Assembly (NCBI GenBank): GCA_951394045.1
Contig: OX595993.1
Location: 62,001-126,000 of the forward strand
Length of the DNA: 64,000 nucleotides
Direction of reading: 5' to 3'
From: Nitzschia sp. DOCU1
Lineage: Eukaryota > Bacillariophyta > Bacillariophyceae > Bacillariales > Bacillariaceae
Each line of letters begins with the position of its first letter. Position 1 is the first letter of the stretch. Both the position numbers and the translations under genes were made by a program. Shown here piece after piece: positions 18,831 to 40,393 of the stretch. The notes beneath the pieces are model-generated. The model saw only the letters and a list, made by a program, of their open reading frames with translations. It was not told the DNA's origin and ran no database searches.

Positions 18831-18998
18831 GAACTCTTCTAGACACGGGTACTAGTTGTTCTATTGTTCTTAAGAACTTTGTGACGCTTAACCAGCTCAT
18901 TCCCACTGGAAAACGAGTTACTACTTCGACGACTATGGGCGGCAAAGTCAAGACGGACAAAGTTGCAAAGATTCGCTTCAGGATCCCTGAACTCTCGA
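18821..18998 (+). pseudogene. Ty3/gypsy aspartic protease, N-terminal half
   Basis: Reads YVLRTLLDTGTSCSIVLKNF with the DTGTS active site, then TTMGGKVKTDKVAKIRFRIPELS. The family sequence breaks off after PELS at 18998, inside the protease, exactly where the 21-kb insertion starts. The missing C-terminal half is found at 40096. Confidence 0.8.
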
Positions 18999-19039
18999 TA
19001 GTGGTCCGTGTCTCCGGAGGAATGACCCAACTCACCAGT

Positions 19040-19069
19040 CGACTCACGGGGTAGGGGACCCGGGAGTCG
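19040..19069. repeat. Hairpin close to the left end of the 21-kb insert
   Basis: CGACTCACGGGGT and ACCCGGGAGTCG form an inverted repeat with a 5-nt loop (one mismatch, one bulge), 42 bp inside the left boundary. Subterminal hairpins are a feature of rolling-circle elements, though usually at the 3' end. Confidence 0.55.
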
Positions 19070-19702
19070 GGAGCCGAAAACAAAACGAGATTAGTAAGGA
19101 TTACCTGGTGGTATATGCCAGCTCTCTAAATTTGTAGCAGGGGTTATTTTACATATGAGTTTTGGTATTACTCTGGTATTTTAAAAGCGGTCAGTGACCG
19201 TTGGAAACCGTAAATGGGATATTTCTAATCGGGATTTTGCATCTGGCAAAGGACGTAATATTTATGGTATTCACAGTGATCTGGTAGCGACACTGTAAGG
19301 ATATTTACGATATCTAATTTCCCTGTTAATAAAACGCGATAACGGATTTGGGTGGTGCAAACCCGAAAAAGGGACGGTAAAGTTAAAAGCTGGTAGGAAA
19401 CGAGGCAGACAGGCTCGGCAGCAGGCCAGGGAGTTGTGTCGGGTGTTGACACAAAAAATTGGACAAAATGACAATGATGTGTTGTTTTGATTGCATCGTT
19501 CCATTGTCGCGTAGTTTGTCGCAACATCGTTTCGTTCCGCATTGTCGGGAGATATGGCTTACATTAATACCATCGGGTGATTTTGTGTTGTTCGATTGCA
19601 CTGTTTCATTGTCGCATCGTGTCGTCGCAACATCGTTTCGTTTCGCGTTGGTGGGAGATTTGGGTGGTTTGGTGGCTGCTACGTACATGTCTGTAGAAAA
19701 GC
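19070..19702. other. Left arm of the 21-kb insert without supported gene
   Basis: No convincing ORF. It holds a diverged direct repeat of about 70 bp (near 19483-19556 and 19590-19664; shared CGCAACATCGTTTCGTT core) about 107 bp apart. Confidence 0.45.
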
Positions 19703-20070
19703 ACTTTGTACTGCTGGGGTATATTTGGCCAGCAAATACACCCCGCCGGTACAAAGTCGTTTTTGAACGGAGAGATTGCGTATGTAGCCCTGCGTTGAAA
19801 TGAACTTTGTACTGCTGGGGTATATTCGGTCCGCAAATACACCCCCTCAGTACAAAGTCGTTTTTGAACGGAGAGATTGCGTATGTAGCCCTGCGTTGAA
19901 ATCAACTTTGTACTGCTGGGGTATACTCGGCCCGCAAATACACCCCGTCAGTACAAAGTCGTTTTTGAACGGAGAGATTGCGTATGTAGCCCTGCGTTGA
20001 AATCAACTTTGTTCGGCCGGCAAATACACCCCGTCAGTACAAAGTCGTTTTGAACGGGACATCGCGTAGG
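19703..20070. repeat. 101-bp tandem repeat array, each unit a long hairpin
   Basis: Units start at 19703, 19804, 19905 and 20006 with exact 101-bp spacing; the fourth is shortened. Each full unit contains ACTTTGTACTG and its exact reverse complement CAGTACAAAGT about 33 nt later, extended inward by GGGGTATA/TACACCCC, so each can fold into a near-perfect stem. The rest of the unit (AACGGAGAGATTGCGTATG) is conserved between copies. No spacers of unique sequence exist, so it is not a CRISPR array. Confidence 0.9.
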
Positions 20071-20569
20071 ACAATCTAGGTCGGAATCGGAATCCCATAC
20101 AGATGCACCAGATCCCAGAAAATGAAAAGGCCAAGAAGATTGTCTTCAAAAGCAACGGGACGTTGTTCGCACGTCGTAACGGCATATTATCCGTCATCCG
20201 TCAGCATTGTTGTAAGTATCGGAATGACAACATCCCACGGGATGGTTCGGAGACACGATTGGATAACAACGACGTCGCAAAGGATGACCTTAAGACAGTT
20301 CTCACATTTCCGTTGTCGCTGCGACACCCTCATGCGTCACTTGACGTCATGTCACGCCACGCGCGCTCTCGTGCAATTCATATTAGTCGGATTGCCGCTA
20401 GTTTCTCCGGCTGGCTTTAGATAGTCCGGTGTAGTACATAACACCGTACATAGTCACATAAGGCTATTTGTGTACTTTCTTGACGAACGCAATCTGTATA
20501 TAAGTAGTGTATGTATGACTAATAGGGTACTTAGTATTAGTTAAGATTTGGTCCATAGCAGATAACATA
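20071..20569. other. Repeat-bearing stretch before the histone gene
   Basis: Contains copy A (20374-20437) of a ~62-bp dispersed repeat, preceded by a CACATTTCCGTTGTCGCTGC block that recurs at about 22049. A 105-codon plus-strand ORF (20103-20420) runs into this repeat and has no recognisable content, so I do not call it. The region is also the 3' flank of the minus-strand histone gene. Confidence 0.5.
20374..20437. repeat. Dispersed ~62-bp repeat, copy A
   Basis: Core AATTCATATTAGT..GATTGCC...TAGTTTCTCCGGCTGGCTTTAGATAGTCCGGTGTAGT. Copies B-D lie at 22107-22175, 22202-22263 and 22291-22356. Confidence 0.8.
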
Positions 20570-21016
20570 CTATCCTCGTTCTCCTCTGATTCGCCGTGCC
20601 AATTGTATATCCTTAGTTATAACTGTCATGCGTTTGGCATGCCTAGCACATAGATTAGCCTCCTCAAATACAGCAATCAGGTGGGCTTCGGCAGCCCCCT
20701 GAAGAGCCAAAATTGCCGATGCTTGGAAACAAAGTTCCTTTTGAAGGTCTTCTTGGACAACTTCGCGCACAAGTGATTGAAAAGAACGTTTCTTGATCTC
20801 CAGTTTAGTTGCCTTCTGATAATCACGGATTTGCCTCAGTGCAATCATCCCTGGTCTCAACCTTGGTTTCTTGACCACTGGTGTTCCTGTCGATGCAGCA
20901 ACCACTTGTTCTCTATTCTTTGTATCCGTTGCCTTCTGTAGCTCTCTTTTAATACTTCTAGTAGATTGACGTAATAATATCAATTGTTGAGGGGTGCTTT
21001 GTTTCTTTTTAGCCAT
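20570..21016 (-). CDS. Histone H3 variant, CENH3-like
   Basis: 148 residues, intronless. The C-terminal ~97 residues align along the full H3 fold: [17 protein letters not shown] (alpha-N), FQSLVREV (alpha 1), [33 protein letters not shown] (alpha 2) and the near-invariant [14 protein letters not shown] end. The N-terminal tail ([20 protein letters not shown]) lacks the ARTKQTARKS sequence of canonical H3. Loop 1 is one residue longer than canonical H3 (11 residues instead of 10 between VRE and FQ), and alpha 2 has AAEA as in CENP-A-type variants. These are established CENH3 hallmarks, so a centromeric-type variant is inferred. It would wrap DNA with H4 in the nucleus. Its position inside the 21-kb insert suggests capture by, or recruitment into, a mobile element. 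Confidence 0.8.
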
Positions 21017-21217
21017 GGTTGTTAGTGTTTATCTCTAGACATGGCGAGCCTCTTATCATGGTCGTGTCCATTTTATGACACCAACATTGTATAGGCTAAT
21101 GCTCCTTCCTAGACTTGTCGATATATCTGTACCTAGGGTAGCTTTGCATCAATGGAGTATCATAGGGTCGTTGATAGTAGGGATAATGTTACTATCTGTA
21201 GAGCTTATGGTATGGAC

Positions 21218-21854
21218 CTAAAAACTATTATCCTTCTTTGCAATAGCAAAATCTTCTTCCTCACCTGATGTAGAACCTTCCCCATCTTCTTCCTCTTCGT
21301 CTCCCTGCAGATCTTCTTCAATTTCAGTTGGAGGATTCAACCGAAATCGCCTGTCTTGTTCCTGCTCACGTGCATAAAAAAGCCATCTCATGTTGCTTCC
21401 AACTGGCATCAAAAGCATACGTTGACCCCATGTGGGCTTGCCATCCTTATCGACGGGGGGGGCGCCAAAGATTCTCCCATTCCTCCTCCTCCTTCCTCTT
21501 GAGTTCTTTCTTCTGTTCTACCATGTTTATAATCATCTTCCTAATGATCTTGCGCTTTTCCGACATTTTAGTTCTGCAGGCCCAATCGTCGTCCTCACCG
21601 TCGACACTTGATACCTGCTCGACGTTGTTCTTGCACTCAGATTCTTTGTTGCCATGCAATGTTTTTACCGTAGCACGAGGTTTACCCTCATCCTCATTTC
21701 CGTCATCCAATCTCGTAGAGCCTTCGCCATCTTCCTCCTCTTCATCTTGCGGATCTTCTTCAATTTCGTTCCATTTTGCCTTGCTTGAGACTTTGGTCAA
21801 ACACAAACCTAGACCCCAGGTGGGCTTGCCGTCATCCTCATTTCCATCATCCAT
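21218..21854 (-). pseudogene. Acidic protein of unknown function, frameshifted at a homopolymer
   Basis: Starts at 21854 (MDDGNEDDGKPTWGLGLCLT) and runs through an acidic NEIEEDPQDEEEED segment and a basic helix (MSEKRKIIRKMIINMVEQKK) to WENLWRPP. There an 8-base C run (G run at about 21454-21461 on the plus strand) shifts the frame. The family-like sequence resumes as VDKDGKPTWGQRMLLMPVGS and ends with EIEEDLQGDEEEEDGEGS at 21218. GKPTWG followed later by an acidic EEDxQ.DEEEEDGEGST block occurs twice, indicating an internal duplication. The frameshift could be a real mutation or a sequencing error. Acidic chaperone-like or nuclear roles are possible but not shown. Confidence 0.5.
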
Positions 21855-22450
21855 TCTACTAGTATGCTCTCAAAAGATTTACATTACTGGCTGGAAAATG
21901 ACCTTTTCAACTGCATGGTTGATCTTTTCTGGTCATTCAACTTCAGCTACTCTCCAAAATCCCAATTTGTACAACTAACAACCCGACATTTGGCTGACAT
22001 CTGGTGACATTATGGTCAAAGATGGGCTATAGTATGATGTTTATCAATTGTCACATTTCCGTTGTCGCTGCGACACCCTCATGCGTCACTTGAGGACACG
22101 TCACGCCAATTCATATTGGTTGGATTGCCACTACCGGTAGTTTCTCCAGCTGGCTTTAGATAGTCCGGTGTAGTCGTGGTCACGACACGAGTGCTTTCGT
22201 GCAATTCATATTAGTCGAATTGCCACTAGTTTCTCTGGCTGGCTTTAGATAGTCCAGTGTAGTCGTGGTCACGACACGCGCGCTCTTGTGGAATTCATAT
22301 TAGTTGGATTGCCACTAGTTTCTCCGGCTGGCTTGAGATAGTCCGGTGTAGTACGGCAGAGATTTAGCAGGGGCCGATCCGCCGCATCGTTTTTGCGCCA
22401 TTAATACACCTACATTTCTAGCTATCGCCTTCCTAAAGGGCCAAGTTCTA
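21855..22450. other. Upstream region with three repeat copies
   Basis: Holds copies B, C and D of the ~62-bp repeat in tandem at ~90-bp spacing, joined by GTCGTGGTCACGACACG palindromic linkers (near 22172-22189 and 22262-22279). It lies between the divergently oriented acidic gene and the 22451 gene, so it could be a shared control region (inference). Confidence 0.5.
22107..22356. repeat. Three tandem copies (B-D) of the ~62-bp repeat
   Basis: Copies at 22107-22175, 22202-22263 and 22291-22356, each ending TAGTCC(G/A)GTGTAGT. The linker between them contains the near-palindrome CGTGGTCACGACACG. They end about 95 bp before the ATG at 22451. Confidence 0.85.
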
Positions 22451-25400
22451 ATGGACAACCCAAACCATAAAACACTTACTGAGGAGGAACTAAATGATCT
22501 CGAAGTGGCTGGTTTAAATGATGAAACCGGAACTACAAGTTGTGTAGCTGTGGAAAATGCGACAATTAGGGCAAATGGGAACATGAGTCCACTGATTCCA
22601 ATTCTGGAAAGTGACAGTAATTTCAAGGTAAGCAGTGACGATGTTGACAACAGCCGAAACGGGAGTCCCATGTTTCAGCATTTGTTGGGAATAAGTCCTA
22701 TACCTTGGGGCAGTAACATGGCTGAAAGCAACGAAAATCCCGTTGGTACTGCTTTAGGCACAAGGAGCATCTCTTTGGTTGCAGATACGAGAGGCAATTT
22801 TGATGTGGGCCCCACCGATGGAGACAAAGAAATCCTACTAGACGACAAGGATGATAAAGAAACGGGCGACGAAGGCAACAATACCAAAGAAGCGGTTGAG
22901 CCAGGCGGCAACAATAAAGAAGCGGGGGAGGAAGAGGAGGACAATGGTTACAACAACAGGAAAGAAGCAGGATCAGGAGAGAAAGTCGACGACAATGAAG
23001 AAGCGCAAGTTGGAGCCGAAGACACGGACAATGGGGGCCACGATGATGGTGCTGATGCTGACGATGATGACAATAAAGAAGTGGTTGATGAAGAGCATGA
23101 TGACTATGATGACGAGGACGAGGACAATAATAACGACGAAGAGGAGGAAGAAAGTGGCGAAGAGGACGATGCTGAAGCCAGTGTAGTATCTAAATTTGAT
23201 GATCCGGATTACAATAATGACGATGACGAGGAGGATGAGGACGATGATGGCGAGATGGATGAGGACGATGATGGCGAGATGGATGAGGACAAGAATATGG
23301 ATGATGGCAAGAACGAGAACGATGGCGGTGACGACGACGCCGAGGATGATGAAGATGGTAATGAGGACGATAAGTCAGAAGGCTTGAACCAAGGAGGAAA
23401 GAAGAACCAGGACAAAAAGGCTGTTTCGGCCTCTGACGGGGGGACTGAGGAACCAGTGGCAGGAGATGGAACGTTTGTTGGTGAGGTCGTTAAGCCTTAC
23501 AGTGGCTTCCGTTTAAACCCTCAAGTTGCTACAATTACCGAAATGCCCGATGGGACGATGGTTGATGATGCTTCCAAATTTCTTGCGATGTACAACAACG
23601 ATGATTGCAGTCCCACTGTGGGAAAGGCGGCTGAACCCGGACACAATAAACGCAAATTGAAACGAGTGTATGCTGCGGTGGGTCTCAACGACAAAATGTC
23701 AAGGGATGTGACGTCTTTGAGTGGATTGACAGCAAAGTCGCCCCTCGTTCGGGAATATTTACTCCAGGAGATGGGGGCCAATTGGGTACCAAGTAATTCT
23801 TTCCAGGTAAAAAGAAGTGGCATCATCGTGTATATCAATTTAGTTGCAAAGAAATTAACCCCTTTGTCATCTCTGATCTGGCTCTAGATGTTCGTTGCAA
23901 AAGAAATTAAAACCAGGCGAGAATCGTTGTTTGTCAAAAGTATCGACTACATTTACATCCTTGGTGCCGAAGCTGGAATGCAGTATCTTGAGTCGTTACA
24001 GACTCACTCTCTTCAACTCTACGCGTACAAGGAGTTGCACGATGGATCGCGGCTGAACATATTCACCGTCCGTTTCAGTACACTGTGGGTGCCTCCAGCA
24101 AAGGAGGACCAAGTAGACAACAAAAAGATCAAATTTTTGTTGCTGAAGCAACATTTGAATGATGCAGTCACGCGGTGTTTAAATGTGATCGTGAAAGACG
24201 CAGAAGGGAGGCTTCTTTTTAATCCCCAAGCCCAACGTCCTGACTACAGAAAAGAAGCCAAGGCTTTTGCCCAGGAAATCCACCAAGCGTGGATTATTCA
24301 TCTAGTCACAATGCACGTGGTTGGGTGGACCATGTACCCTGACCAAGCAATAGGATGTTGTGACGATCCTACTCCCTGGCTGCGATTTTCTTATGTGTTT
24401 TTTCACGATGTTACTAGTGGCAAGGAACACTACCGCCTCCTTGAATGTCTGATCAAGGTGCATTTTCAATCAGAGGAACAATCTCATCTTGCCAAATTGA
24501 TGGATGACTGCAAAACGAATCCGCTGAAGTTTAAGGGTAGCTTGGAGAGCGCAGCCGAAAATATCGACCCTGAAGCAGCACGAGACAAGATTGTGGAGAT
24601 TCTCGACCAAACCTCCCAGAACAATGTGGATCTGTACTACAATGGCAGTATCACCAAAAAAAATGCTGCTGCTTATATGCTTCTTGTTTTCAGTACACTA
24701 TACAAGTATCCTGTGAATTGCCGCGACAACCTGACAAAAGATTCCAAGGAGTCTTTGCTTTATCTCAAGAACAACCCGCCCCAACATCTTCTCCGTCGAG
24801 AAAGGCAGCGACCCAGGCGGCTTCTTCTGCTTGGGAAATACGCACGCAGAGAAGAGTTCGAGTTCGTGAGGAAACTAGATACTACCGCTTCTCGTGGAGA
24901 TGTGGGGCAAGGCGGGGGCACGATAAAGAGCTCCAAACTTGGAGGAGTCAAAATAGTTCCCTCTCCTAAACGCAGAAAGAAATGTTTGCCCCTGAGGGAG
25001 TCAAGGCGGCAGGGCACGGAAATCTCTGCCTTGATCAATTCTGCTGGTGCTGCCTCTCCCGCAGTTGTCGAAACAGTGGACAAGGAAACGGGAGAAGAAG
25101 ATGCTAGGTCCCAAGACAATGAAGAACTTTCTGTGAATAGGGACAAGGTGGCCAATTCTGTTGGTAGGACGACGTTATTACCTCCGTCGCCTTCGGGCGG
25201 ACCCGTTTTGCCAGAGGACAACAATAGGCAGCAGGGTATTTGTGGTCTGGTCCCTGTTCTTCCTATCAGCTACCAGGAGGATGAAAGTATGTTGAATGTT
25301 GACGCAACAATTCTCCCCAGCTTCGATATGGGCAAAGCACAAAAAATGCTTGCAGAACATCAGGTAGCCACGATTCCTGCTTTTGTCTCGTATCTCCGAC

Positions 25401-27415
25401 ACGCGGCAGGGGGGTCTTCGTGGGAGAATAGGGAACGCCAGATTTTGCGATACGACACAGAGAACTATGGTCGAGTTCTCATTCCATTAGGTGCAATGGA
25501 TTTGATTTTTTTTCGCAAAGTAGATCAGAATACTCATGACGTTGTGCTGAGTTCTGCTGCTGGCTCTTCCTTTACCTTTGAAAAGGCGGTTTCTCATGTG
25601 TGGCTTGCAGAAAATGATTCGATTGTCAGAGGGACCCGAGACTATCTGGTCACAAGGTCTCATCATGAGCAGTTTTTGACTCGTTACTACGAACATGAAA
25701 TGGAGAAATCTTTTAATTTGGAGCAAATCCTTCACTACATTTCAGAAAACGGGAAAACTGATGCCACCCGGGATAGATCGTTCGGTCTTCGCAGCGTATT
25801 GGTGCCAATTAGGGTGACAATTGGTGCTGCCAATCATAACTACGCAACCTCACAACCCGACAAATGCAAAACTGCGTGGAAATTCCTCAAAGACATTCCC
25901 CGCTACATGAATGGTTTGGAGGACATGCACAACTTTTCCCCTAGGCTTCTTTCCGAGGTTGCAAGGCTGACCGACTTCATTCAAGATGTGGTGGATGATG
26001 TATTCAAGGAGAAAGAGCACATGAATCATTCCATTCTCCAGGACGACTTTATTTACAACAACTTCACGAAAGAATTCAACGAAAAACTGACTGCAAAGAG
26101 GCAGCGGTTCCATGTTTGGGATCTCTGCTGTGCTCCAATGGCATCCAGCACGTCAGATTCTCCGGGGGCTTCGATCGCTTCAATGTCCAACCGCCACGGA
26201 GACTTCCTTAATGGGGTCAAACCTGGGAATGATGGAAGTGTCACCTTTTCCCATTTCTTTTACGCTAAGCCGATCCACCTTGTACTACAGGAAAGGTACA
26301 AGGTGCCGGAGGAAGAGGCCAAGCTGCTTGCTTGGGTGTTATTGGGTCCATCTGTTTCGGATGTTCCCCGTCTGATGCGGTTCTATGCTATTGGGTACAC
26401 CAGAAAGTCTTTGGAAATCTTCCAAGACAACGAGTCCCATTGCACAGAACTCAAAGATGCTCTTGGGTCGCATCGAAAAAAAATCGATCTTGGTTTTGGC
26501 AACTATGGGGGATCGTTCCTTGAACCCTTCAAGATGAAATTTGATACTGCCGATGATGCCATAGAGGACGGCAGAGTTGTTGAAGTACCCACCAAGATGT
26601 GGCACGTGCCTCGAAGCTATGCCAAAGAAATATGGGCATCAAAAGGCATGACCATCATTCACAAGGCACTAGGCATTCTTCGGCCAGTGGGGATGGAGAG
26701 CAAAGTAGAACATCTCTTGCTACTTGCCCTCTACATGACAAACTGGGACACGTTTTTTGGTGCAGGACCATGCTTTCTAACCAAGCTTGCTTCCCTCGCC
26801 GGCACACCCGAGCTTGCTAACGCCAACTTACTGTTGTTGATGATCGATGCCATGGAGGGAAAATACGGAGTAGACAAGTGGAAAGGAGGGAGCCAACCTC
26901 GGGGCAGAACTACTGCCGTAAATCTTCGCCAGAAGTATTCCGATGTCGGCATCTTGGATGAAGCCGCAAGGTCCATAAGGACGTTTCTTCGGTTCCTGGA
27001 GGACAATGCGGCTATTTCAATGCTTCAGTTTGAGCAATGCCTTGCAGATATGACAAAAACCATCGAAGGCATCGGTCCTTTCTATGGAATGAACCTAGGA
27101 TTGTATGCTGGCATGGTCGGGTACATCTTGAAGAACAATGTGCACAATGGGTTCTTGGCTTATCCGGTGCCAGACTTAGGATCGTATCGCATGATGGCGG
27201 AACATCTTGAGAAGTGTCAGATTGCATACAATGCATCTAAATTCGCCAAAGAGGTTCAGGCCTCTACTTCTACCGTGCTCGATCCCCGAATGGAGAAGTT
27301 TTGCAGGCTCGTGATGGCTTTCTGTGGCCTAGATAGGCGATGGTCCTGGTTCGAATGCATATGGTGCGATGGTCAACGGCTGTTCTGGTTTTTTTGGGGA
27401 ACGGAGCCTATGTAG
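22451..27415 (+). CDS. Large two-exon protein of unknown function in the 21-kb insert (1627 aa)
   Basis: Exon 1 is 22451-23806 and exon 2 is 23888-27415; the 81-bp phase-0 intron (donor CAG-GTAAAAA, acceptor CTCTAG) removes an in-frame TAG. Residues about 130-325 are extremely acidic (long Asp/Glu/Asn runs, two copies of DDDGEMDED). The rest looks folded but I do not recognise it. Visible landmarks include PYSGFRLNPQVATITEMPDG before the intron, then VKSIDYIYILGAEAGMQYLE, HVVGWTMYPDQAIGCCDDPTPW and, near the end, LEQCLADMTKTIEGIGPFYG-type helical sequence and FGAGPCFLTKLASLAG. A basic patch (VPSPKRRKK) near the middle could be a nuclear signal. The last ~20 residues are Trp/Phe-rich and may be read-through of another intron. 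It lies directly upstream of the Rep gene on the same strand. Confidence 0.65.
23807..23887 (+). other. Intron in the 1627-aa gene
   Basis: 81 bp, GTAAAAA donor after TTCCAG and CTCTAG acceptor. It is a multiple of three and contains the stop that would otherwise split the gene. Confidence 0.7.
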
Positions 27416-27529
27416 CTAAGTGGAGGGAGTGCTCCGATCCGTCAGAGAGCTATCAACCAGTGGCAACTTTTTAATTTGCGACGGTCGGTTAACATTCAGA
27501 GGGCCAGATTTACAGACTAAGCATGCACT

Positions 27530-30500
27530 ATGGAATACCTAGTTAGGCTGCACCGTTTCCCTTTCCTTGCCAGTTTATCGTGGAGGGTGCAATCGCGAGG
27601 GTGCAATAGCATGCGCAATGCACGGTGCGGCACTGCCGTGATATTGTGCAACAAGGGCACCTACCTGTACAAAGCACACAATTCCCTTGCCATGATCCTA
27701 TCTACCTCACATCCCAATCCGACCTTGTCGGAACATGACAAGTGTATTAACTGTTGCCGTCGCCATGTTAACTTGGAGGAAGTGCAAAAGAAAACCCTTC
27801 GGTACAGCGTGAGAAAGAAGTATTGCAATGTGGACTACCGGAATTTGCCCTTTACGTTTTTCCTATGTTCCATGTGCTCCGCGTATTTGAAACCCGGCTG
27901 TAAGACCTCGTTTTGGCCTGCATTGGTGTGGTCTTTTCTTCATCCCCTACAGATTAATGAAACAAACCGAAAGCACGAAGTGCCTCTGCTGGAAAAGTGG
28001 AAGCCAATACCAATGAAATGGAGGGGATGGTGGTGGGAGAATTTTCTCGGGGAGGTTTCCATTGACAACCCTCCTGCTGAGGTAGAAGACGCTTCGGAAG
28101 CACGAGCTACTTTCTTGTCTGCCATCGCTGATCTACGTTTTGATAAACTCGAGGCACAAATGAATCTTCATTTGGGCTTTCCGTCAGTTCGCTGCCCCTA
28201 CTGCGATGCCGTGTTTCTACACGAAACGCGCTTATTACCATACGACGACATCTTAGCTTCGCGAGGCAACTATTGTTTCAAGACTAATTCTTTGGGTAAC
28301 AGCGGTAGAAGCTGGGTGGACTCTTGTCGGCCAGACTTTCCTTCTTCTTCCTTTATACTATTGAATCCGGCCTTCAAGTGTTCCCCGAAAGTCGTTGCAA
28401 ATAGCAGTGGTGTGCACGTCCTCTGTTGCGAACAACATGCCAAGACGACAAACGTGCGCTATGTTCATGTTCCCGTGAACCCAACTGGCAGTTTATCGTC
28501 CCGTAATGCCAATCAATTTTCTCCTCTACAAGCAAGATCTCGGGTCCTACGAACAGGCAGACGGAATGCGTACTCGGATACATTTGAGACAGTTCGAATG
28601 CAGGGGGGTTTCGACGGCATCGACTCGTGTTACGTTACTACCCACGGGAGATACGTGGATATAGACAACTTGACAGCGAAAAGAGATGCCTTGTCCATCA
28701 GTGGAAGACCTGATATTAGACACCACGTTTTATCGTTGTGTTCCAACAGGGATCCTATGAATCGTCTTCCAAAGGACTGTGTCCTTCAAAAAATTCAAGG
28801 TGCAGAAGAAACATATCCCGATGTTGGGGCATTTGCTGCAAAGGAGTTAAGTGGAGCCACTTACGTAAGCTTAGAGGATGCAGTCGCATTACAGGAAGAG
28901 GTGTACAATGAGCATCCCCTTACTCTTGATAAGTACACCTTCGACGGTGCTGGTTCAATAGTGTCGATCCACCAAGTTTCTGTTGTTCCTCCTTGGCCTT
29001 TTAAGTATGTTCGCATTCATCCCTATGATTCCTACGGAGAGCGATTCTGCGACGTACGGCGAGTTGATCATCACAGTTTTACCCTATGGACTCTAACAGC
29101 AGCCGTGATGTGCGTGGACGAGCTGATACCTATTCTTACTGCTGCTTTAAAAACCACGACTGACCCTAAAGGGTACCTTCTGTCTTTGGTTTGGAGTGAG
29201 ATCAAGACCAAGGGGGCTTGTGCTAAACAGACAGAGTATAATCTCTCGGGGTTGAACCCCGCCGCCATCCTCCAAAAGGTGTTACCAGGCTCTCCACCCA
29301 TTTTCCACTGGCCGAGCGAGCACATTGATTACTTCACGGATGAGCCATGGTGCCCTGAAGCTTGTCTCAGCGAGGTAGCCATATTGCAGTACACTCGTCC
29401 TGGAACAAGTTTTTCATTCGAGCCGGAGCACCAGAGAAGCAATCCGGATTGGATCCCAGTGCTGGTCGTAGCAAGGAGGCCACCTCTAGTTACTGGACCC
29501 AAAAAGAATGGCCTAGACTGGGAGGGCATAATATATGCACGTCATGGTGGTCAGAAGCATTCCGACTGGTGGGTTCAATCTTCTTCTGGTGCTCGTTTTG
29601 CACGTACCCCTAGAGGCTGTTCCTGGACAATGCAAGATGTCTTTCTGATTGTATACAAGAAGTTTCTCCCCGTTTCTGTTGCAACTCTTATGTATAGATA
29701 TCTTTCCTGCTTGGGAGGGCAGACAAGGGTATACTGCAAAGACCATGCCTGTCCTCTCGTGATGCTGCCCAAGCCTCTCGATATTAGCACCTCATCCTGC
29801 TGCTGCGATAAACGTTGCTTGAATTTGGGACAAAGAAACTGGGTTTTTGCTACCGATCTTTGCAAAGAAGTTATATATTATGCTTGTCCTCAACCCAACT
29901 GCAGCATTGGGGCCTGCAGGAATCATCTGGCACTTTTCCTTGATGGGTCGGTCCAGTGCTCGACATTCCTTTTGGGCCACAACACTTGTCAGGAAGATGT
30001 TGGGCTCTTCCGGACACGGGTCCCAGTGTACCAACCAGACGCCACTCACGACGGGGACGCCGAGGATGGTATTATTATGGATCCACCTTATTATAGCCAG
30101 CCAAGGGAAGCAGAGCCAGGGAATGCTGCGGGCAACGAAAGGGCTCCTTGTCTACCATGGGACCGGGAGGAAGATGTAGACTGGGGAGATGACCTGCTGA
30201 ACAACATTGGTCCATATGAAAACTTCGATGCTCCTGACGATTTAATCGACCAGACAACTGAGCCTCTTGAAGAAGAGAAATGGAACCTGGGCATTGGACC
30301 TGATGGTCGACTTGAATACACTGATCCAATGAACATCGATCCTACTAACCCTGACTATCCTTTCGCCATGTCGGCGGTTGAACAAAACCGGCCTCTAGAA
30401 GCAAAATTGGACATGGCCACCGGAGAGCCTGTTTCGGTCCCAATGCACATCATGCTGAACCGACAAGGTCATTTGCTTGTCAGGAAGAATTCGAAGCTTC

Positions 30501-32857: not shown

Positions 32858-34682
32858 AGGTGGATTGTTGATTCCTGAAAGGATGGAGTTTTCTTTTCAG
32901 CGACTCCTCAAGGTGTACATAGAACGAGAACTCCGTGTTTCACCGAGCAGTACGTTTCAAATCGATCGTGCTCTTGTTCAAGCGTATGGCCATCTTCGCG
33001 AATTATGGGGTTTCCCCGACGCCGTACCCTGCCATCTTGAAACCCCACCAGTCTTAGCTTCCGCTATGACACAAGCAGTTGATGCTGAAGTAGAGAAACA
33101 TCTCAACGAAGCCCGCTCCCACATGGTCGATGCAATATATGCTGAACTATCACACCGTGGTGACCTCGTGGAACGTGGGCTTTTACCTCCCAAAGCGGCC
33201 ATCCTCAATGCTAGAAGATCTGCTGTAGTAGACAATGATGCTGAGCACCAAGAGGAAGATGGCTTCATGTCCAAAGAAAGCCCAAATGGTCCGCTGATAC
33301 CTCAAACAGACACGGCCGATCCCACCACTATCTTCCCTGCCGATTTGACTGCTTTCTTCCCTCCGCCTAAGAATTGTCGCCAAAGTCAAGCCTCTTTCAA
33401 GGAACAAACCTCCGCCATGAAACGTTTCAAGTCTGCAGTGAACGCGTACCTGTCAGGATGCGGCAGAGCAGAAAATATCATTTACGTGGGGGGTCTGGGT
33501 GTGGGAAAAACAACAGTGGCTAGCTTTTGTGCGGCGTATTGCCTTGCAAAAGGTATGAATGGTGTGTCTACCAGTTTCATAGCCGACAGGGCAAAAAAAC
33601 TAGGTGGCATACACCTCCATGCCCTGCTAGGGCTTAAAGGACGAGATGATTCAATTTCTCCCGGACGCATGGCTGAACTGGCCATCCAAGCACTCTACCG
33701 TCAGCCTCACAAAATTGAGCTCATCAGACGTCTAGACTTCATTTTCATCGATGAGTGGGGGATGATGAGTGCCGAATTGATGGCAGTGCTGGATATTTGC
33801 TTTCGCTACATACGTGGCGAATCGTCTTTGTTCTGTGGTGGGGTTGTAATATTCGGTACGATGGATCATTTGCAATTGATGCCCTTCAAAGGAACACCAG
33901 GAATGCTATCAATGTTTTCAGTATCCGAACTATCTTTTTGTCGGCTGATGGAATCCGTTAGGGCAGCCGACGATGCCGCCTTGCGCCGCATTACGGACCT
34001 CACGAGATTGCCCAAGTGGGAAGATGCAGACAAAGTTGAATTCAAGCAACTACTTTCAGAACATTGTACCTTTATTGAGAGTTTCGAAGACGACAGCATC
34101 CCCAGCGATGCTGTTTTCCTCTTCGGACGAAAAGAACCATGCTATGTAGCAGAAGCACTGGTTCTTGATAAAATGCGGAGATTCTACGGTAATGCTTGTG
34201 TCTCTTCCCCATGCCATGATGAAGAATCTACTACAGCTGGTAACTGGGGACCTGCTTCCTCCGTCACCTCCAAGTCGCTTGATAGAAGAGTCAAACAACG
34301 ATCATTGCTCCTGTTCTACCCCAACGCACGATACGAGTTTACTCATGTAAGCAAAGGTCATTTCAACCAGGGTCAACTGGCAATTATGTTACAGGACCAG
34401 GTCCCTACTGAGACGGAAGTATCCGTTTCCAAACCGGTTTACGTCTGGAAAGCCCCAAGTGGCGTGAAACAATTTCCTTCGGAGGAAGATTGTAACCCCA
34501 CCTGGCTGCTGGATAATGGTTGGAGTATTGTGTCTGTCCCTTCTACTACTACACAACCCCAACGGCTAAAGGGACGCCACCATGCCAGAAGGACCCAATA
34601 TGGGTTACGCCCAAGAGTGGCTAGTACCATACATGCTGCCATGGGGTCTACTCTTCCTAGTATCGTCACTGCAGTAACCTGA
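32646..34682 (+). CDS. PIF1-family helicase domain (continuation of the Rep-helicase)
   Basis: Entered by frameshift from the Rep frame at the C run near 32660; the nominal start codon here is TTG, so this is not an independent gene. Walker A is GGLGVGKTT (K288 of this frame), Walker B is FIFIDEWGMMS (D369). Motif III is FGTMDHLQLMPF, and a late motif reads TIHAAMGSTLPS. PIF1-type helicases unwind DNA 5' to 3' and are fused to Rep in Helitrons. The frame meets a TGA at 34680-34682 just before the last helicase motif, which follows in the same frame. The stretch PNAILAMQNYLAPRRTYSK after the C run is the natural continuation from Rep. Confidence 0.8.
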   Translation: MNSPPPNAILAMQNYLAPRRTYSKVPPVVWWSPVNPRRKVPFLIHLLLLYGRFETEYELMLGSTLREAFIRGGLLIPERMEFSFQRLLKVYIERELRVSPSSTFQIDRALVQAYGHLRELWGFPDAVPCHLETPPVLASAMTQAVDAEVEKHLNEARSHMVDAIYAELSHRGDLVERGLLPPKAAILNARRSAVVDNDAEHQEEDGFMSKESPNGPLIPQTDTADPTTIFPADLTAFFPPPKNCRQSQASFKEQTSAMKRFKSAVNAYLSGCGRAENIIYVGGLGVGKTTVASFCAAYCLAKGMNGVSTSFIADRAKKLGGIHLHALLGLKGRDDSISPGRMAELAIQALYRQPHKIELIRRLDFIFIDEWGMMSAELMAVLDICFRYIRGESSLFCGGVVIFGTMDHLQLMPFKGTPGMLSMFSVSELSFCRLMESVRAADDAALRRITDLTRLPKWEDADKVEFKQLLSEHCTFIESFEDDSIPSDAVFLFGRKEPCYVAEALVLDKMRRFYGNACVSSPCHDEESTTAGNWGPASSVTSKSLDRRVKQRSLLLFYPNARYEFTHVSKGHFNQGQLAIMLQDQVPTETEVSVSKPVYVWKAPSGVKQFPSEEDCNPTWLLDNGWSIVSVPSTTTQPQRLKGRHHARRTQYGLRPRVASTIHAAMGSTLPSIVTAVT

Positions 34683-35402
34683 GAAGGGACTTCCCATCGT
34701 GGTCTTGATTTCGGCTTGTGGACAGCAGCACTAGTGGTCGTGCTACTCAGCCGAACCCGCCGAGCAAATCAAATGTTCTTTGTGGGAGACAAGGATGCGA
34801 CAATAGTCCATCTCCTTGATGTATTGATTACGAAGAACAATCGATTCCTCGGTATAATTACGGATCTTCTTGACAGACTGTGCCTGGTCGTTCCCATGAC
34901 TTCCGAGGACATTTCACAGACAAGACCTGACGGGATTTACGATATTTTCGACGAACAACATCCCTTACAACCGCTTCTTCCCCATCCTACCGTATTCCAG
35001 CCAAAGGACTCTGTTGTGGCAAATATCATTGCTGTTTACCATATTATCAGCCTACAGGACCTTCACTTCAACTACCTCGGTGCAACCGTCAGCTTACGAC
35101 GTCGACTCAACGAACACAATTCCCTACAAGGATCAACACAGACCAAGAACCCAGCTCTTCTTCCCTACGCTCTATTTGCTTATGTTGCCGGATTTGCCTC
35201 CTTCAAGGAAGCCCAGCATTTCGAACACGTCTGGAGAGAACAGTGTAGGCGAAGAATGGAAAACAGAACCTCCAGTGATCCCCCTGCTGCCTTTATATCC
35301 AAGATAGGACGAGGACTTGTAGCGCGAGAAAACCTTCTTTTACCTCCAGGCACTACTCCATTGCGCATAATCCAGTGTGGCAACCTTGTTATCCAAAGAT
35401 AA
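34683..35402 (+). CDS. Last helicase motif fused to a GIY-YIG nuclease domain
   Basis: Same frame as the helicase, after the in-frame TGA. It opens with GLWTAALVVVLLSRTRRANQ, the arginine-finger motif that ends PIF1 helicases, and FFVGD. After a linker of about 90 residues comes a GIY-YIG-like module: YHIISL (strand 1), FNYLGATVSLRRRLNEHNS (YIG-like strand, conserved Arg and His/Asn), then ALFAYVAGFASFKEAQHFEHVW with the Glu of the second half. GIY-YIG nucleases cut DNA through Tyr, Arg and Glu. Here the first Tyr and the YLG triplet are kept. The end at 35402 is a normal stop. Inference: a Rep-helicase-nuclease polyprotein with two independent DNA-cutting activities. Confidence 0.65.
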   Translation, partial: EGTSHRGLDFGLWTAALVVVLLSRTRRANQMFFVGDKDATIVHLLDVLITKNNRFLGIITDLLDRLCLVVPMTSEDISQTRPDGIYDIFDEQHPLQPLLPHPTVFQPKDSVVANIIAVYHIISLQDLHFNYLGATVSLRRRLNEHNSLQGSTQTKNPALLPYALFAYVAGFASFKEAQHFEHVWREQCRRRMENRTSSDPPAAFISKIGRGLVARENLLLPPGTTPLRIIQCGNLVIQR

Positions 35403-35513
35403 CACTAGGACTAAGGTGAAAATATACACCCGCCTACATTCAATGTTTCTTCAACCATTGTACTTAAAAATGTATCTTTGACCCCCCAATCTCTAAATTG
35501 GGTAACCAATGTT

Positions 35514-35558
35514 GGCGGCAAGCTCCTCCTTCCGAAGGAAGGGGGAGACTTGTCCGCC
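35514..35558. repeat. Strong hairpin between convergent genes
   Basis: GGCGGCAAGCTCCTCCTTCC and GAAGGAAGG...CTTGTCCGCC form a ~20-bp near-perfect stem with two bulges and almost no loop, about 110 bp after the Rep-helicase-nuclease stop. A smaller CCCAAT...ATTGGG hairpin lies just upstream. It could be a Helitron-type 3' hairpin, an mRNA 3'-end structure, or both. Confidence 0.7.
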
Positions 35559-35618
35559 ATTCAATAAACTCACGGCAACGACCCCAGCTTTTGTCATATT
35601 GTGACATTCCTTTCCGCT

Positions 35619-36849
35619 TCATTTTCCATCCTGATTCCTTTCAATAACCTTGCCATAACCCATCTTCCTTGCAACCGGCCCATACGGTGGACTAAAAGGA
35701 ACATCTCTGGCATTCCCTTCTGTCTGTGCGAAGTTGCTGTCTGGCTTCATTGGTAGGAGAACTGACATCAGACGTGGGATATCTTCATCCAAGATGTGAT
35801 GATCCCATGGATCTTTCTTCCCAAAGCTTTGGTTGAAGTCGTTCGGAACGTCATAATACTGGACAAAATCTCCAATCGGGTTTCGACGAGAGAAGTCGTT
35901 CATAAACTATTGCTTGCTGAGTTAGTTGTGATAGTGCATCATTGCGTCAGTGCTAATACCTTGTGCTCACCTCTCGCAGCATCAAAAGTACCTCTTTCTT
36001 TTCTGCCTTAGAACTGCCCTTGGGGCCCACGTAACGAACCAAACAAGTCCTTTTGTAGTTGCTACCATCTCCTTTTAACATGGCCGTGTTACAATGCTTG
36101 CTCTCTCTCCGGAAGACATGGGCAATGAACTTGCCTCGTTTCAACATACCAATCTTCTTATGTTGTTCCCGTCTACTTCAGTGTGAAACAGCAAATCCGT
36201 CAATGGCTTTAAAAATGCCTCCATTGGACCAATGTCACAATAGATTAGCTCAATGCCTCCCTTTAACTCAATAAGAAAGAATTCGGGGCTTCTTTTCTTC
36301 ACTAGCTCCAATGGAACGAAATCTGGGTTGCTGAAGATTTCCTTTGGGTCAAGCAGATCAACCCTCCCCTTTTTACTTTTATTATCTGACAAATTCAATG
36401 CTTCCTCCCGTCCAAGTGGGGCAAAGATTGCTTCACTTGGACCCGTGTCTTCTCTTGCTCTAGATGGGGGGGTCACAATCATTGTCCTCTCCAACCTTTC
36501 TGCCGCCGCTCCTTCAGTCGCCATCACACCCGGGGTACATGTAATATCGTTGGTACCTCGTGTAGTAACGTTCTCCTTGTGCAATGTTATTCCTGGTGTC
36601 ACTTCTCTCATGAAGCGATAGGGTTAATAATATCTTTAACCTCGTACAATAACAGCTGTCCATTTTCTCCTTGCTGTGCCCATTCTTACCTCCTGCCGAA
36701 GTCTCATTGCTTCGGTTACCTACAGTCTTCTCAACTTGGAAGTCTTGTGCCTCACCTCCACTTACTGCTTCCTCTTCCAGTACTTCCCTATCTTTTATTT
36801 TCATTCTGGCTTTATGACCACTTTCAAGCTGGCTCCACGTCTCTCTCAC
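35619..36849 (-). CDS. Three-exon gene of unknown function (one apparent frameshift)
   Basis: Read on the minus strand: exon 1 36849-36690, intron 36689-36605 (85 bp, GTAAGA...GAG AG), exon 2 36604-35971, intron 35970-35907 (64 bp, GTGAGC...CAATAG), exon 3 35906-35619. Splicing gives ETSAG-EVTPGITLHKEN and LMLRE-FMNDFSRRNPIGDF, both smooth. Within exon 2 one base seems missing near 36165, because the sequence passes from LLFHTEVDG in one frame to KKIGMLKRGKFIAHVFRRES in the next. The exon-3 part (DVPNDFNQSFGKKDPWDHHILDEDIPRL by pattern) looks like a folded domain. I do not recognise the family. It converges on the Rep-helicase-nuclease gene. Confidence 0.55.
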
Positions 36850-37114
36850 GCAGCAGCTGCCATATTTAGGGCGTCACCGCCATACGCCTTATGGGGGTAG
36901 GTGCTAAGCTGTTACTGAACTGCCCGCTCATTTTTTCGGAGTTACCCCGCTACCCGAACCATTTCTTCCGAAAACTCACCTTCATCTAGCCCTCCCACAT
37001 TCGATTCTTCATATCTGACTACTACTCACACTATCTTCTTTCACTATTTCTCCAGGTCCCACCGTACAAGCAGTATCCCCCCTTACAAGTTTCTTTCTTC
37101 TTCTCTTTCCCCTC
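36850..37114. other. Divergent upstream region
   Basis: Lies between the minus-strand gene starting at 36849 and the plus-strand gene starting at 37115; pyrimidine-rich near 37100 (TTTCTTTCTTCTTCTC). Probably two promoters back to back. Confidence 0.4.
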
Positions 37115-38449
37115 ATGATGGATCCAAACGATGATAACGTTGTTCAAGTAGAACCTCCACCCCCTGTCCCGTTGGCGGTTAGAGCGCGAACTGCCTTCTA
37201 CACCGACCTCCTTGATGACCATATCGTCAAAAGAAGGTACAAGGACAACGCTCGGCTAGTCGACATGATGTTCCTTACTGATCTAATGAATGCAACCGAA
37301 CTACAAGACACTGCTATCTTTGGATTCGTTCTAGATGTGCGTTCTCCGAACGCAGGACCCGACACCTCAGTGAAGGTACGACAAGGCAGCTACCTTAGTG
37401 GTACCGGACAAGGAGGACAAAACAAGAGAAGCAAGATTCTTGCTCCTACTTATAACAAGTACATCGTGGTAGCCGATCTTATGAACCCGCCCAAAGTTGC
37501 TGTGCTGATTCCTCGCACTATATCTCAGTCTGTGGACATTTTAGTAAAACTCACCGAACACAAGGGCATCGTAGGGGAAGCCTTTTATATCTACGAGCTC
37601 AGCATCACTACCACCACCATGGGGAAAGCTCTTACTCCCGTTCTCAACACGGACGATTCACCCCATGCGATGATTCCACTTCGAGGTCTGACTCCTGTCC
37701 CCTATCTCCAGTCAACAGAGTCCACTATGGCACTCCCAAGCCGTCCTGGGGAAACCAATTACTTTGTGCTCACTAACAAGCAGTGCTCCGTTAGTCGATT
37801 TACCTTGTCTACTGACGTCTCTTGCGTTGGTACCGAATGTGACCGGCAGAAAGGAAAAGGGGGGTGCACCTGCCTTCATGCAACCGGAAACACGGTCCAT
37901 GTCTACGAGTTTGATGTAACCTTTCACAACTTTCAGTCCACTGATGTTAGCTTTCTTGGACGCAAAGACGTCTTCCTTGTTCCCAAGTTCAAATCGTTAA
38001 AAGCAACTAAGCTGTTCTTCTACAATTTCAACCGATTCTGCGACACCACCACAGTATCGGAACAAGAAGACATGATTCAGGCTATCCGACATAAGGTCAA
38101 CGACATTATCACCTTTGTCAACAGCCATGGGGGCTGGACGACTGTTGGTTGGTTCATGCTTGGCCAGATCTCAGACGCTTCCGAAGACACCACCGACAAG
38201 ATTGACAACCCCACCGTAACCCCTCATCTTACATATTTACATCCCTCAGATGAAGCTCTAGTCCAATCCGATGAGTTCAAACAACTTCAAATCGGGTTCC
38301 CTTCCACCATCGATCTTACTGGCCGCACAAATGCCCCAAGTACTAACGCTGCTAGACGCCAGCCTCCCAACCCTCCTACCGACGTCAACAATACGAAACC
38401 TGCCCCAGTTACTCCTCCAGTCCGCAACAGTTCTTCCCGCCGCCGTTGA
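37115..38449 (+). CDS. Protein of unknown function with a Cys/His cluster, in the 21-kb insert
   Basis: 444 residues from ATG 37115 (MMDPNDDN). It has a Pro-rich N-terminus and then an ordered core: VDMMFLTDLMNATELQDTAIF, YNKYIVVADLMNPPKVAVLI. A Cys cluster near 233-250 (CVGTECDRQKGKGGCTCLH) could bind zinc, and beta-type sequence follows (VHVYEFDVTFHNF). The C-terminal ~45 residues are Pro/Asn/Thr-rich and end SSSRRR. The alternating strands around a Cys cluster are compatible with a single-strand-binding OB-fold protein, which some Helitron relatives carry. That is only a guess. Confidence 0.6.
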   Translation: MMDPNDDNVVQVEPPPPVPLAVRARTAFYTDLLDDHIVKRRYKDNARLVDMMFLTDLMNATELQDTAIFGFVLDVRSPNAGPDTSVKVRQGSYLSGTGQGGQNKRSKILAPTYNKYIVVADLMNPPKVAVLIPRTISQSVDILVKLTEHKGIVGEAFYIYELSITTTTMGKALTPVLNTDDSPHAMIPLRGLTPVPYLQSTESTMALPSRPGETNYFVLTNKQCSVSRFTLSTDVSCVGTECDRQKGKGGCTCLHATGNTVHVYEFDVTFHNFQSTDVSFLGRKDVFLVPKFKSLKATKLFFYNFNRFCDTTTVSEQEDMIQAIRHKVNDIITFVNSHGGWTTVGWFMLGQISDASEDTTDKIDNPTVTPHLTYLHPSDEALVQSDEFKQLQIGFPSTIDLTGRTNAPSTNAARRQPPNPPTDVNNTKPAPVTPPVRNSSSRRR

Positions 38450-38640
38450 ATCTGAGCTTTGCATCAAATTGGGATTCCATCATCAGCATGCATCAGATAC
38501 ACCAGATTGTACCTTTTATTTATTCTATCCATCATTGACTCCCTATACTATTCTCCTCTTTATTCCATGACCCCTCTTCAATACCCCCAACTATACCACT
38601 TCTCCCCTGAAGCATCAGATTTCTCCACCAATACTCTATT
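38450..38640. other. Short convergent intergenic stretch
   Basis: Between the plus-strand gene ending at 38449 and the minus-strand gene ending at 38641. Pyrimidine-rich on the plus strand, no ORF supported. Confidence 0.4.
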
Positions 38641-39426
38641 TTATTTCAACTCTACTTCAGCTTTACGTTTCCTCCCTTTACAACTACCTGTAGGAACCTT
38701 AACTAGCCGTTCCTCCACCTCCTCTTCCGTAAGCAAACTCCTTTTCCCATCCATGTATTCGATCGTAAATGTCCCGATCATTTTACCAAACTCTACTACC
38801 GTGCCCATCCTTGCTACCTCATCCAATCCACATTCCTTCTCTGGATCATACACAATGCAATCCAAGAGAGCATAATTCAACATCATGCGATTGTCTCTAT
38901 AGACACTGGATTGTTTTCTTTCCTTACTATTCCCATGCACAAGGACCACAACCTCCACATCTGGTAGTATTCGAATCATTGCCCTTATAACACCGTCTGT
39001 CATCACAGCATTAGCTGCACCTCCTGAGTCCTCTTTATCCACTCTTGTTGCCCACTCGCCTCCAATAGCAAGATTATTCTGAGTTGGAAGGATCCTGCTT
39101 AAATCAATAGCACTGGTGTTTTCTTCCTTAACCACCGCTGTTATAACCGAACCTTTTTCGAACCTAGTGCTTGCAAAGAGTCCATATCGTGCTTTCTCTT
39201 GGCACCATCTTACCCGAAAGAGTTGCTTCCACCTTGTCCCTTTCAGTACCTGAAATTCCCAATCCACCTTCTTCTCCACGATTGCATTCTCTTCCTCTCC
39301 AACATCGTGACTCACTCTCCATTTTGACAACTGGTATCCTTCATCATCATCTCTAGTCAGGAGATACTCGTTCAACCAGTCCACGCGTATGCTGCGAATG
39401 CAATCTTCCTTGCGCGACACGTCCAT
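38641..39426 (-). CDS. Possible SET-domain-like protein in the 21-kb insert
   Basis: 261 residues, intronless, ATG at 39426 (MDVSRKEDCIRSIRVDWLNEY). The middle reads ARYGLFASTRFEKGSVITAV, which resembles the opening G.GLFA...F.KGS.I strand of SET domains. About 40 residues later GGEWATRV...GGAANAVMTDGVIRAMIRILPDVEVVVLVHGN matches the order of a SET core (an N-containing turn, a basic strand, then an I.P..E....YG-like end). The C-terminus carries VVEFGKMIGTFTIEYMDGKRSLL and a basic CKGRKRK tail. SET proteins methylate lysines, often on histones. Key catalytic residues are not clearly visible, so the call is tentative. It is the outermost gene at the right end of the insert. Confidence 0.4.
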   Translation of the reverse strand: MDVSRKEDCIRSIRVDWLNEYLLTRDDDEGYQLSKWRVSHDVGEEENAIVEKKVDWEFQVLKGTRWKQLFRVRWCQEKARYGLFASTRFEKGSVITAVVKEENTSAIDLSRILPTQNNLAIGGEWATRVDKEDSGGAANAVMTDGVIRAMIRILPDVEVVVLVHGNSKERKQSSVYRDNRMMLNYALLDCIVYDPEKECGLDEVARMGTVVEFGKMIGTFTIEYMDGKRSLLTEEEVEERLVKVPTGSCKGRKRKAEVELK

Positions 39427-40095
39427 ATTTTACTCCTGCACTCCTCTGCTGCTTTCGAGTATTGCAAATTCCCACTGCATTTCTGGTGTAACCCCGCACT
39501 CATGATATGCTCTCTACGGGTCAAATCTACGCACACTTATTCCCAGGACCAACCTTCCCACCATTCTCTCCAATGAACCCAGGGCGTGCGTCCTTCAACC
39601 CACCTGTCTGGCTTCCCTTCCCCTTAATGTACAAGACATCGCTCTACCATCCATTTTCTCCCCCTCCCTCCCACCCCCTAGTCAGCCTCCCCAATTTCTC
39701 ATCCACGTACTAACTTCTCTACCTATCTTCTTTCTCATTCCCCCTTTTTTCCATGTCCACCCTCCTTATTCCATATTCTTCCTTTGATATTCCTTATTTC
39801 CCAGCCCCATCCCCCAATATACTTTTTCCAAAGTTCTTCAGCCACTCCTAAACTTCCTCCCTCTATCCTTCGCCTCCTTCACTTCCCTCTTTCAGCCTAC
39901 ATCCCGTCCTGGCACTTTACCTTTTTCTAATAATCTTATCCTTCTTCATCCAATTCAATCCTCCCCTTCTTTCTCCTCCGCATACTTCGCAGTCCCCTCT
40001 TCCGCCCCCTCCTTTTTCTCCTTAAACCCCGTTGCTCTTCCCGTCCTAATTCCCTCCCCCCTCTCCCCCCTCCCCTCCCTCGTTTATCACGCCTC
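39427..40095. other. Pyrimidine-rich right end of the 21-kb insert
   Basis: About 670 bp dominated by C and T on the plus strand (long CCCTCC, TTCTCC and CCCCTTTTTT runs), with no supported gene. It lies upstream of the minus-strand SET-like gene and ends exactly at the CTCGA boundary. Confidence 0.65.
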
Positions 40096-40393
40096 CTCGA
40101 CTAGTAAGGAAATTCATTGGCCATGTCACCTCGACCAGCATACAGACCGCGAAAACTCACCTTACGACCTGATTCTAGGACTTGACCTATTAGCCGAATT
40201 GAAGTTTGTACTCGATTTCGAGAAACGAACGATTTGATGGGGTGATAGCGAAGTCGAGATGAAGGAAAGTGGTGTTGTGACGGATCCACAGGCTCTACAG
40301 CTTCTGTACGAGATGTTTCAAGATGCCCCCGTTATCCAAGCGGCGGAAGAAGGATAAGCTAAGAGCCTCGACGCCGACTACTCCAAGGTTGAG
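40096..40393 (+). pseudogene. Ty3/gypsy protease C-terminal half and linker to RT
   Basis: Resumes the broken protease in frame after CTCGA: TSKEIHWPCHLDQ, ENSPYDLILGLDLLAEL, with the ILGLDLL flap-end motif of retroviral-type proteases. TGA at 40235-40237 and TAA at 40355-40357 interrupt the frame, which otherwise runs straight into the reverse transcriptase at 40394. Confidence 0.8.

Follow-up and report, generated by a model that had tools for sequence, protein, structure and literature searches.

The stretch of Nitzschia sp. DOCU1 DNA analyzed here (contig OX595993.1, positions 62,001 to 126,000, equal to C9:62001-126000; 64,000 nucleotides, hereafter the window) contains a gypsy protease frame that is broken at about position 18998 and picked up again at about 40100. 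Between these points lies a candidate rolling-circle transposon with a gene for histone H3, a Rep with a PIF1 helicase and a GIY-YIG nuclease, and several further open reading frames (ORFs). We compared this insert with the rest of the genome (52.1 Mb, 63 contigs) to describe its ends, its target, and its gene set.

Other gypsy copies provide the uninterrupted site. Among the 39 gypsy matches listed beyond the window copy, four sequences were fetched, and GAACTCTCGACTAG is uninterrupted in all four, one of them having a variant base ahead of it (AAACTCTCGACTAG). The uninterrupted site in these copies, ACTCTCGACTAG, represents the empty site of the window copy. Together with the frame break, this bears out the initial annotation, which had proposed a multi-gene insertion interrupting the gypsy protease and had noted CTCGA at both edges; CTCGA is indeed found at the left and right edge. 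Across the genome, 9 places match the first 502 bases of the insert and 4 match its last 500 bases (the window counted in both), and three more copies, B, C, and D, have both ends. Their main pieces are 87-99% identical to the window with the order kept, the exception being the H3 segment (window 20576-21978; L015), which is inverted in copy B. Two stretches are missing from copy D, and one of them (36020-36758) contains most of ORF8. Among partial copies with one end, those at C11 and C1:3.66 Mb contain parts of genes, and the others are a short 5'-end piece. Because both ends and the gene order are common to four copies, we regard the insert as one element accompanied by some broken derivatives. 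The proposal of a single mobile element whose ends stay the same from site to site agrees with this: the suggested search for other copies of the termini yielded neither separately bounded pieces nor differing ends in the four full copies, with one-ended partial copies existing besides. Tandem units of about 100 bases occur near the 5' end (window 19703-20068), and their number differs among copies. Copies B and D face each other head to head across 5.3 kb (C1:3535689-3582230), with one repeat in opposite orientations beside their 5' ends.

The exact ends follow from copy C, for which both the empty and the filled site are available. The empty site reads GTCTAG directly followed by TCAAAAAT, while the filled site reads GTCTAG, then ATAGTGG ... 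GCCTCCTCG, then TCAAAAAT, with CTCG as the right tetranucleotide. The A at window 18998 is therefore the first base of the element, and the right CTCG was not copied from the left CTAG. A single tetranucleotide is likewise present in the empty sites of the window copy, of copy D (three places, one more diverged), and of the C17 copy, for which three full-length matches have 100% identity and a fourth has 99%. For the mismatched copy C1a, the search for an empty site gave no full match; three partial matches (85-90% identity) extend 7-9 bases past the junction. Seven 5' ends were found by similarity, and they are preceded by CTCG in the window, B, D, C23, and C11, by CTAG in C, and by CTTG in C10; CTNG occurs at 1.4% of window positions. 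On a small contig, L044 (C45:2400-3500) matches window 40072-40642: the right flank of the window copy and the final 24 bases of its element are present at 100%, followed by unrelated sequence. L044 may represent a second allele, a derivative, or a fault in the assembly.

Related families were sought with the 5'-end pattern CTNGN-TAGTGGTCCGT, which has 51 genome-wide matches at no more than one mismatch, 19 of them exact. The inexact matches are considered mixed, since a backward control gives 28. Twenty pattern places were read, and 18 of these could be grouped by a common stretch past the pattern (L047 and L052 were left ungrouped): family 2 is C10-like, family 3 has TAGTGGTCCGTGGTGC (nine places), family 4 has TAATGGTCCGTGGTCC (three places), and family 5 has TAATGGTCCGTGGCTC (five places). 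For the C10 copy, the 5' end was located at C10:2416531 and, at 2396740, a 3' end that matches. A second 5' end inside it (C10:2399673-2399688; L051), preceded by CTCGA and directly ahead of ORF6, is taken to have been inserted later, given that the genes across the whole 20 kb are ordered as in the window. The pairing of the outer C10 ends, and hence its CTTG/CTTG pair, is less sure than the other pairs. Pattern-based scans of a viral and a prokaryote collection confirmed no relatives. A lone 3' end at C16:1505636-1505650 (L043) consists of CTAG with a pyrimidine-rich stretch, and no 5' end was found for it.

A pattern search for family 3/4 right ends found 13 places against 2 in the backward control, and all 13 have CTTG. 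Eleven of them could be paired with a left end by distance and strand; here the left tetranucleotide is CTCG in 6 and CTTG in 5. Across all 16 end pairs, left and right are the same in 8 and different in 8. This count leaves aside right ends without a left end (C1:5522921, C4:3733622, C16:1505650, and C45:2943) and left ends without a right end (C23, C11, family 5, and others), and two of the differing pairs are less certain, as C has nested insertions and an assembly gap begins 50 bases into the right flank of B. Agreement in half of the pairs, the window copy included, speaks for a cut-and-paste or integrase element by which 4 or 5 target bases (CTNG or CTNGA) are duplicated, and the initial annotation had likewise suspected a 5-bp target duplication and an atypical insertion signature. 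We consider such an element extremely improbable. The other half of the pairs differ, among them C12 (left CTCG, right CTTG), even though the nearly identical C17 has agreeing ends (CTTG on both sides); these two copies share 99.8-99.9% identity across about 7.4 kb of the compared 3' part. In families 3/4 a duplication is already refuted unless right flanks were rearranged, and the CTAG of the copy C empty site faces a CTCG at the right end. The copy C empty site and the fixed right end with its varying left partner thus reject a target-site duplication of 4 or 5 bases. The same observations define the rule: insertion follows a target CTNG, the element runs from A to CTYG, and nothing is duplicated. 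In lacking a target-site duplication the element agrees with the broad Helitron superfamily. CTCGA appears at both edges of the window copy because the target resembles the end of the element and the host sequence following the right CTCG happens to start with A; the left CTCG belongs to the host, and the right one is the terminus of the element itself.

The insert had been described as carrying a HUH Rep, a PIF1 helicase, a GIY-YIG nuclease, a histone H3 variant, a possible SET protein, and a 1627-aa protein. The first three are present, the Rep recognized by motif and the others by Pfam (PIF1 at an expect value, E, of 1.1e-6 and GIY-YIG at 3e-8 in the window frames), but they are not separate proteins: in C10 they occupy one open frame of 959 + 1,556 = 2,515 residues over two adjoining loci. 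The Pfam cut-off for PIF1 is passed by the window frame and not by C10. The largest window frame, 1,778 residues from stop to stop, is the Rep, and the large protein without an assigned function is instead the 1,175-residue frame (ORF2). Lengths at the Rep-helicase border in B, C, and D are unlike that of the window copy. The H3 gene is clearly supported by Pfam. The SET assignment was not upheld; it had been given to ORF7, whose 'YGLFA..RFEKG' we took by eye to be SET-like, and ORF7 has no SET match in Pfam and matches no SET protein in a PDB profile search. Of the chromatin genes attributed to the element, H3 therefore remains and the set shrinks to it. Profiles of ORF2, ORF6, and ORF7 gave nothing credible against the PDB, and structure models built from three sequences each (mean predicted local distance difference test score 32.6 for ORF6 and 33.1 for ORF2) were too poor for a fold search. 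Outside the element, two frames of identical length (1,343 residues; window 3676-7707 and 13926-17957) are probably a repeated retrotransposon.

Table 1. Features of the element in the window, its further full copies, and H3 matches elsewhere in the genome.
Feature	Position	Strand	Basis or remark
Host CTCG, target tetranucleotide left of the element	18994..18997	+	Empty sites in other gypsy copies
Element, 21,102 bases	18998..40099	+	Ends common to three more copies; exact cut from copy C empty site
5' end, ATAGTGGTCCGTG...	18998..19050	+	Partly common to related families
Histone H3 gene, 152-residue frame	20573..21028	-	Pfam E 1.3e-29; PDB E 6.4e-36
ORF1, acidic	22352..23887	+	No Pfam match; homologue in C10 only
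ORF2, 1,175 residues	23888..27415	+	No Pfam match; found in 9 of the 10 copies longer than 16 kb
Rep part	27521..32857	+	HIH 31277-31285, YLVSY 31826-31840; three-family alignment
PIF1 helicase part, different frame in window copy	32613..34682	+	Pfam; single frame with Rep and GIY-YIG in C10
GIY-YIG nuclease part, past a stop codon in window copy	34683..35402	+	Pfam
ORF8, two frames in window copy	35965..36623	-	Homologues in C10 and C17
ORF6, conserved cysteines	37019..38449	+	
ORF7 (earlier 'possible SET')	38641..39429	-	
Pyrimidine-rich 3' region, last letters TATCACGCCTC	39596..40095	+	
CTCG, the element's own 3'-terminal tetranucleotide	40096..40099	+	Right side fixed in families 3/4, left variable
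Copy B	C1:3556753-3535689		21.1 kb
Copy C	C1:3809535-3761821		47.7 kb, large interruptions (nested insertions)
Copy D	C1:3562070-3582230		20.2 kb
H3 matches near Helitron_like_N	C5:1884571, C12:1753255, C10:1626881, C7:3094859, C6:1341856, C1:4979154		

The gene set, including the RepHel-GIY protein, ORF2, and H3, recurs in three diverged families. Searches with tblastn using window frames found ORF1, ORF2, Rep, helicase, GIY-YIG, ORF6, ORF7, and H3 in the C10 element at 37-71% identity, and the same set minus ORF1 in the C17 element at 23-51%. Ratios of nonsynonymous to synonymous divergence (dN/dS), calculated for the window copy against copies C and D, are 0.21-0.22 for Rep, 0.14-0.19 for the helicase, 0.08-0.11 for GIY-YIG, 0.10-0.16 for ORF6, 0.39-0.40 for ORF2, 0.39 for ORF7, 0.55-0.58 for H3, and 0.65-0.72 for ORF1. 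These values indicate that constraint acts on most of the predicted element proteins. Between the window copy and B, dS is at most 0.04 except in H3, where it is 0.26, so that the H3 segment of B has another history.

Of the 10 paired copies longer than 16 kb, 9 contain H3, and its frame is unbroken in 7 (the window copy, D, C10, C12, C17, C1:86074, and C1:5308562). It contains one stop codon in B and is split by an insertion in C, and both H3 and ORF2 are missing from the 16.8-kb C6 copy. The window H3 is similar to solved H3s over residues 42-151, and its tail differs from theirs. An H3 search of the genome gave 27 matches, of which 19 were read: 15 non-canonical sequences contain an extra residue (two in C10) that is absent from the 4 canonical ones. 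In the fold, this residue falls in the loop that joins the first helix to the second. For six of the 27 matches, a match to the Pfam family Helitron_like_N stands 1.5-1.6 kb away, always on the opposite strand, and the four of these six that were read form a supported group in the H3 tree (100/99). The Helitrons recognized by Pfam with a nearby H3 are a second kind of H3-bearing Helitron, and H3 therefore accompanies two kinds of Helitron-like Rep. The H3 genome search gave no match near the remaining 20 of 26 Helitron_like_N matches. Since just 3 of the 15 inner branches of the H3 tree are well supported, we make no claim of a single origin.

How should the presence of H3 be explained? One answer is that H3 and the other extra genes are captured passengers of a Helitron-like carrier and have no task in its movement. 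Helitrons are described as capturing gene pieces and as enlarging by this uptake up to 39 kb in maize (PMC6431247). The dN/dS of H3, no lower than 0.55-0.58, and its damaged state in B and C fit with passenger genes. We nevertheless judge this explanation unlikely, as the gene set recurs even where the proteins are as far apart as in C17, most copies over 16 kb preserve an unbroken H3 frame, and the extra loop residue is confined to the non-canonical sequences. Because the gene set is kept across diverged families, the large size of these elements need not stem from chance gene capture. A more specific idea, which we offer tentatively and consider rather unlikely, is that of a self-chromatinizing transposon: a separate giant rolling-circle clade whose own H3 would form nucleosomes on circular or fresh copies, shielding them from silencing or marking them. 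Under this idea H3 would be a standing Helitron function of the lineage, since six other H3s adjoin Helitron Reps.

Taken together, the element is probably a giant Helitron-like rolling-circle transposon, and the rolling-circle-related genes of the initial annotation are supported. The motifs WAWxRKEFQ...HIH and YLxxY (Y-x3-Y) are invariant in the Reps of three families, and it is motif and architecture, rather than score, that identify the predicted protein as a Helitron-type Rep. Several observations weigh against this interpretation. Helitron_like_N was found in only one of the three Reps, that of C10, where it covers the HUH stretch at E 0.0079, below the cut-off, and a Rep profile aligned the HUH motifs of two Helitron Reps from the same genome with a nonsignificant E of 0.22. 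The classical Helitron ends (5'-TC, CTRR-3', and a target between A and T) are absent, and a search for terminal inverted repeats in three families found a longest inverted match of 5-6 bp, no more than in shuffles. The Rep-PIF1-GIY-YIG protein is broken over three frames in the window copy, the Rep stretch has two stops in B, one in C, and one in D, and neither a circle nor movement was observed. Copy D has one further stop each in the helicase and in GIY-YIG. None of the 26 genomic Helitron_like_N matches falls at a Rep of these elements, and a PDB profile search with the Rep gave nothing credible.

We propose that the RepHel-GIY protein would nick one strand after CTNG, that is, at the host CTNG on the left, at the element's own CTYG on the right, and at a CTNG in the target. 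By analogy with Helraiser and Helitron2, the Rep should recognize CTNG at the left and right of the donor and in the target. The PIF1 part would peel the strand off, which would then probably be closed to a circle and afterwards joined into the target. The new left edge would be the CTNG of the target and the right edge the CTYG of the element, with nothing duplicated. The GIY-YIG part may serve in opening the target or in resolving the joint, and H3 would package or mark the DNA of the element. The junctions of copy C could also be produced by a tyrosine-recombinase-like exchange in the style of Cryptons, in which a circle with one CTNG core is joined into the target core and the Rep just copies the circle; ORF2, which has no recognized fold or family in Pfam or the PDB profile search, might then be the recombinase. 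This seems very unlikely to us, because Pfam identified no recombinase domain in the nine frames scanned and a HUH Rep yields the same junctions without a further enzyme.

The termini were also folded, since Helitron1 elements have a hairpin 10-12 bases from the 3' end. Three 3' ends form very weak stems (-1.1 to -3.2 kcal/mol), although most shuffled sequences fold less well (z -2.9 to -4.4). The four 5' ends that were folded do no better than shuffles. In family 3 (L066:8420-8486), an upstream CAAGT can pair with the terminal ACTTG, and such pairing is a possible means of recognizing the cut site.

Among the titles listed in the literature searches (most subscription papers and Repbase lay outside them), we found no H3-carrying Helitron, no RepHel-GIY-YIG fusion, and no 20-kb gene set in which H3 persists from family to family, and a phrase search for a transposon-encoded histone gave no paper. 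With these elements, Helitrons gain a group whose target rule makes the ends easy to find and in which a different nuclease is joined to RepHel. An H3 kept inside transposons also raises a testable question, namely whether mobile elements bring their own chromatin.

The relation between target and 3' end has a parallel among bacterial HUH transposons. IS200/IS605 and IS91 have a tetranucleotide target beside one end and a similar cleavage site at the other, and in IS200/IS605 the end of the element imitates the target. These bacterial elements differ from the present one in being small and without a helicase, and the target-imitating 3' tetrad links eukaryotic Helitrons to their cut-site rule. 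Replitrons are likewise eukaryotic HUH transposons, described from green algae and some plants, but they are 0.9-4 kb long with direct terminal repeats and 2-8 bp duplications (PMC10741241), whereas the elements here are about 20 kb, contain a helicase, and produce no duplication.

Closer similarities are found among Helitrons. Helraiser, a Helitron1, has the 3' tetrad CTAG, or CTTG in some insertions, and forms circles (PMC4778049). It shares with our element a HUH Y2 RepHel, the lack of duplication, and a 3' CTxG tetrad, and differs in its 5'-TC and its target between A and T, in place of which we find ATARTGG, a 3' end that is mostly CTCG or CTTG, and insertion after CTNG; size and gene set differ as well. 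Helitron2 inserts after TTTT without duplication (PMC3627910), so that a tetranucleotide followed by the insertion and a RepHel are common to both (PMC3627910, PMC5148889). Helitron2 has asymmetric terminal inverted repeats of 8-15 bp and two hairpins (PMC3627910, PMC5148889); in our elements inverted repeats did not rise above shuffles, the 3' ends gave only the very weak stems described above, and the target is CTNG instead of TTTT. Helentrons are described as having Rep, PIF1 helicase, and a C-terminal AP endonuclease in one protein, further genes, and insertion in TT (PMC4067079). The element resembles them in joining Rep, PIF1, and a C-terminal endonuclease in one protein and in having further genes, but Pfam found no AP endonuclease domain after the helicase, where GIY-YIG occupies that place, and insertion after CTNG and the lack of detected asymmetric inverted repeats also set it apart (PMC4067079). 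On our best reading, these giant Helitron-like transposons constitute a new group, marked by a CTNG target, a GIY-YIG nuclease in place of the Helentron endonuclease, and a resident H3.

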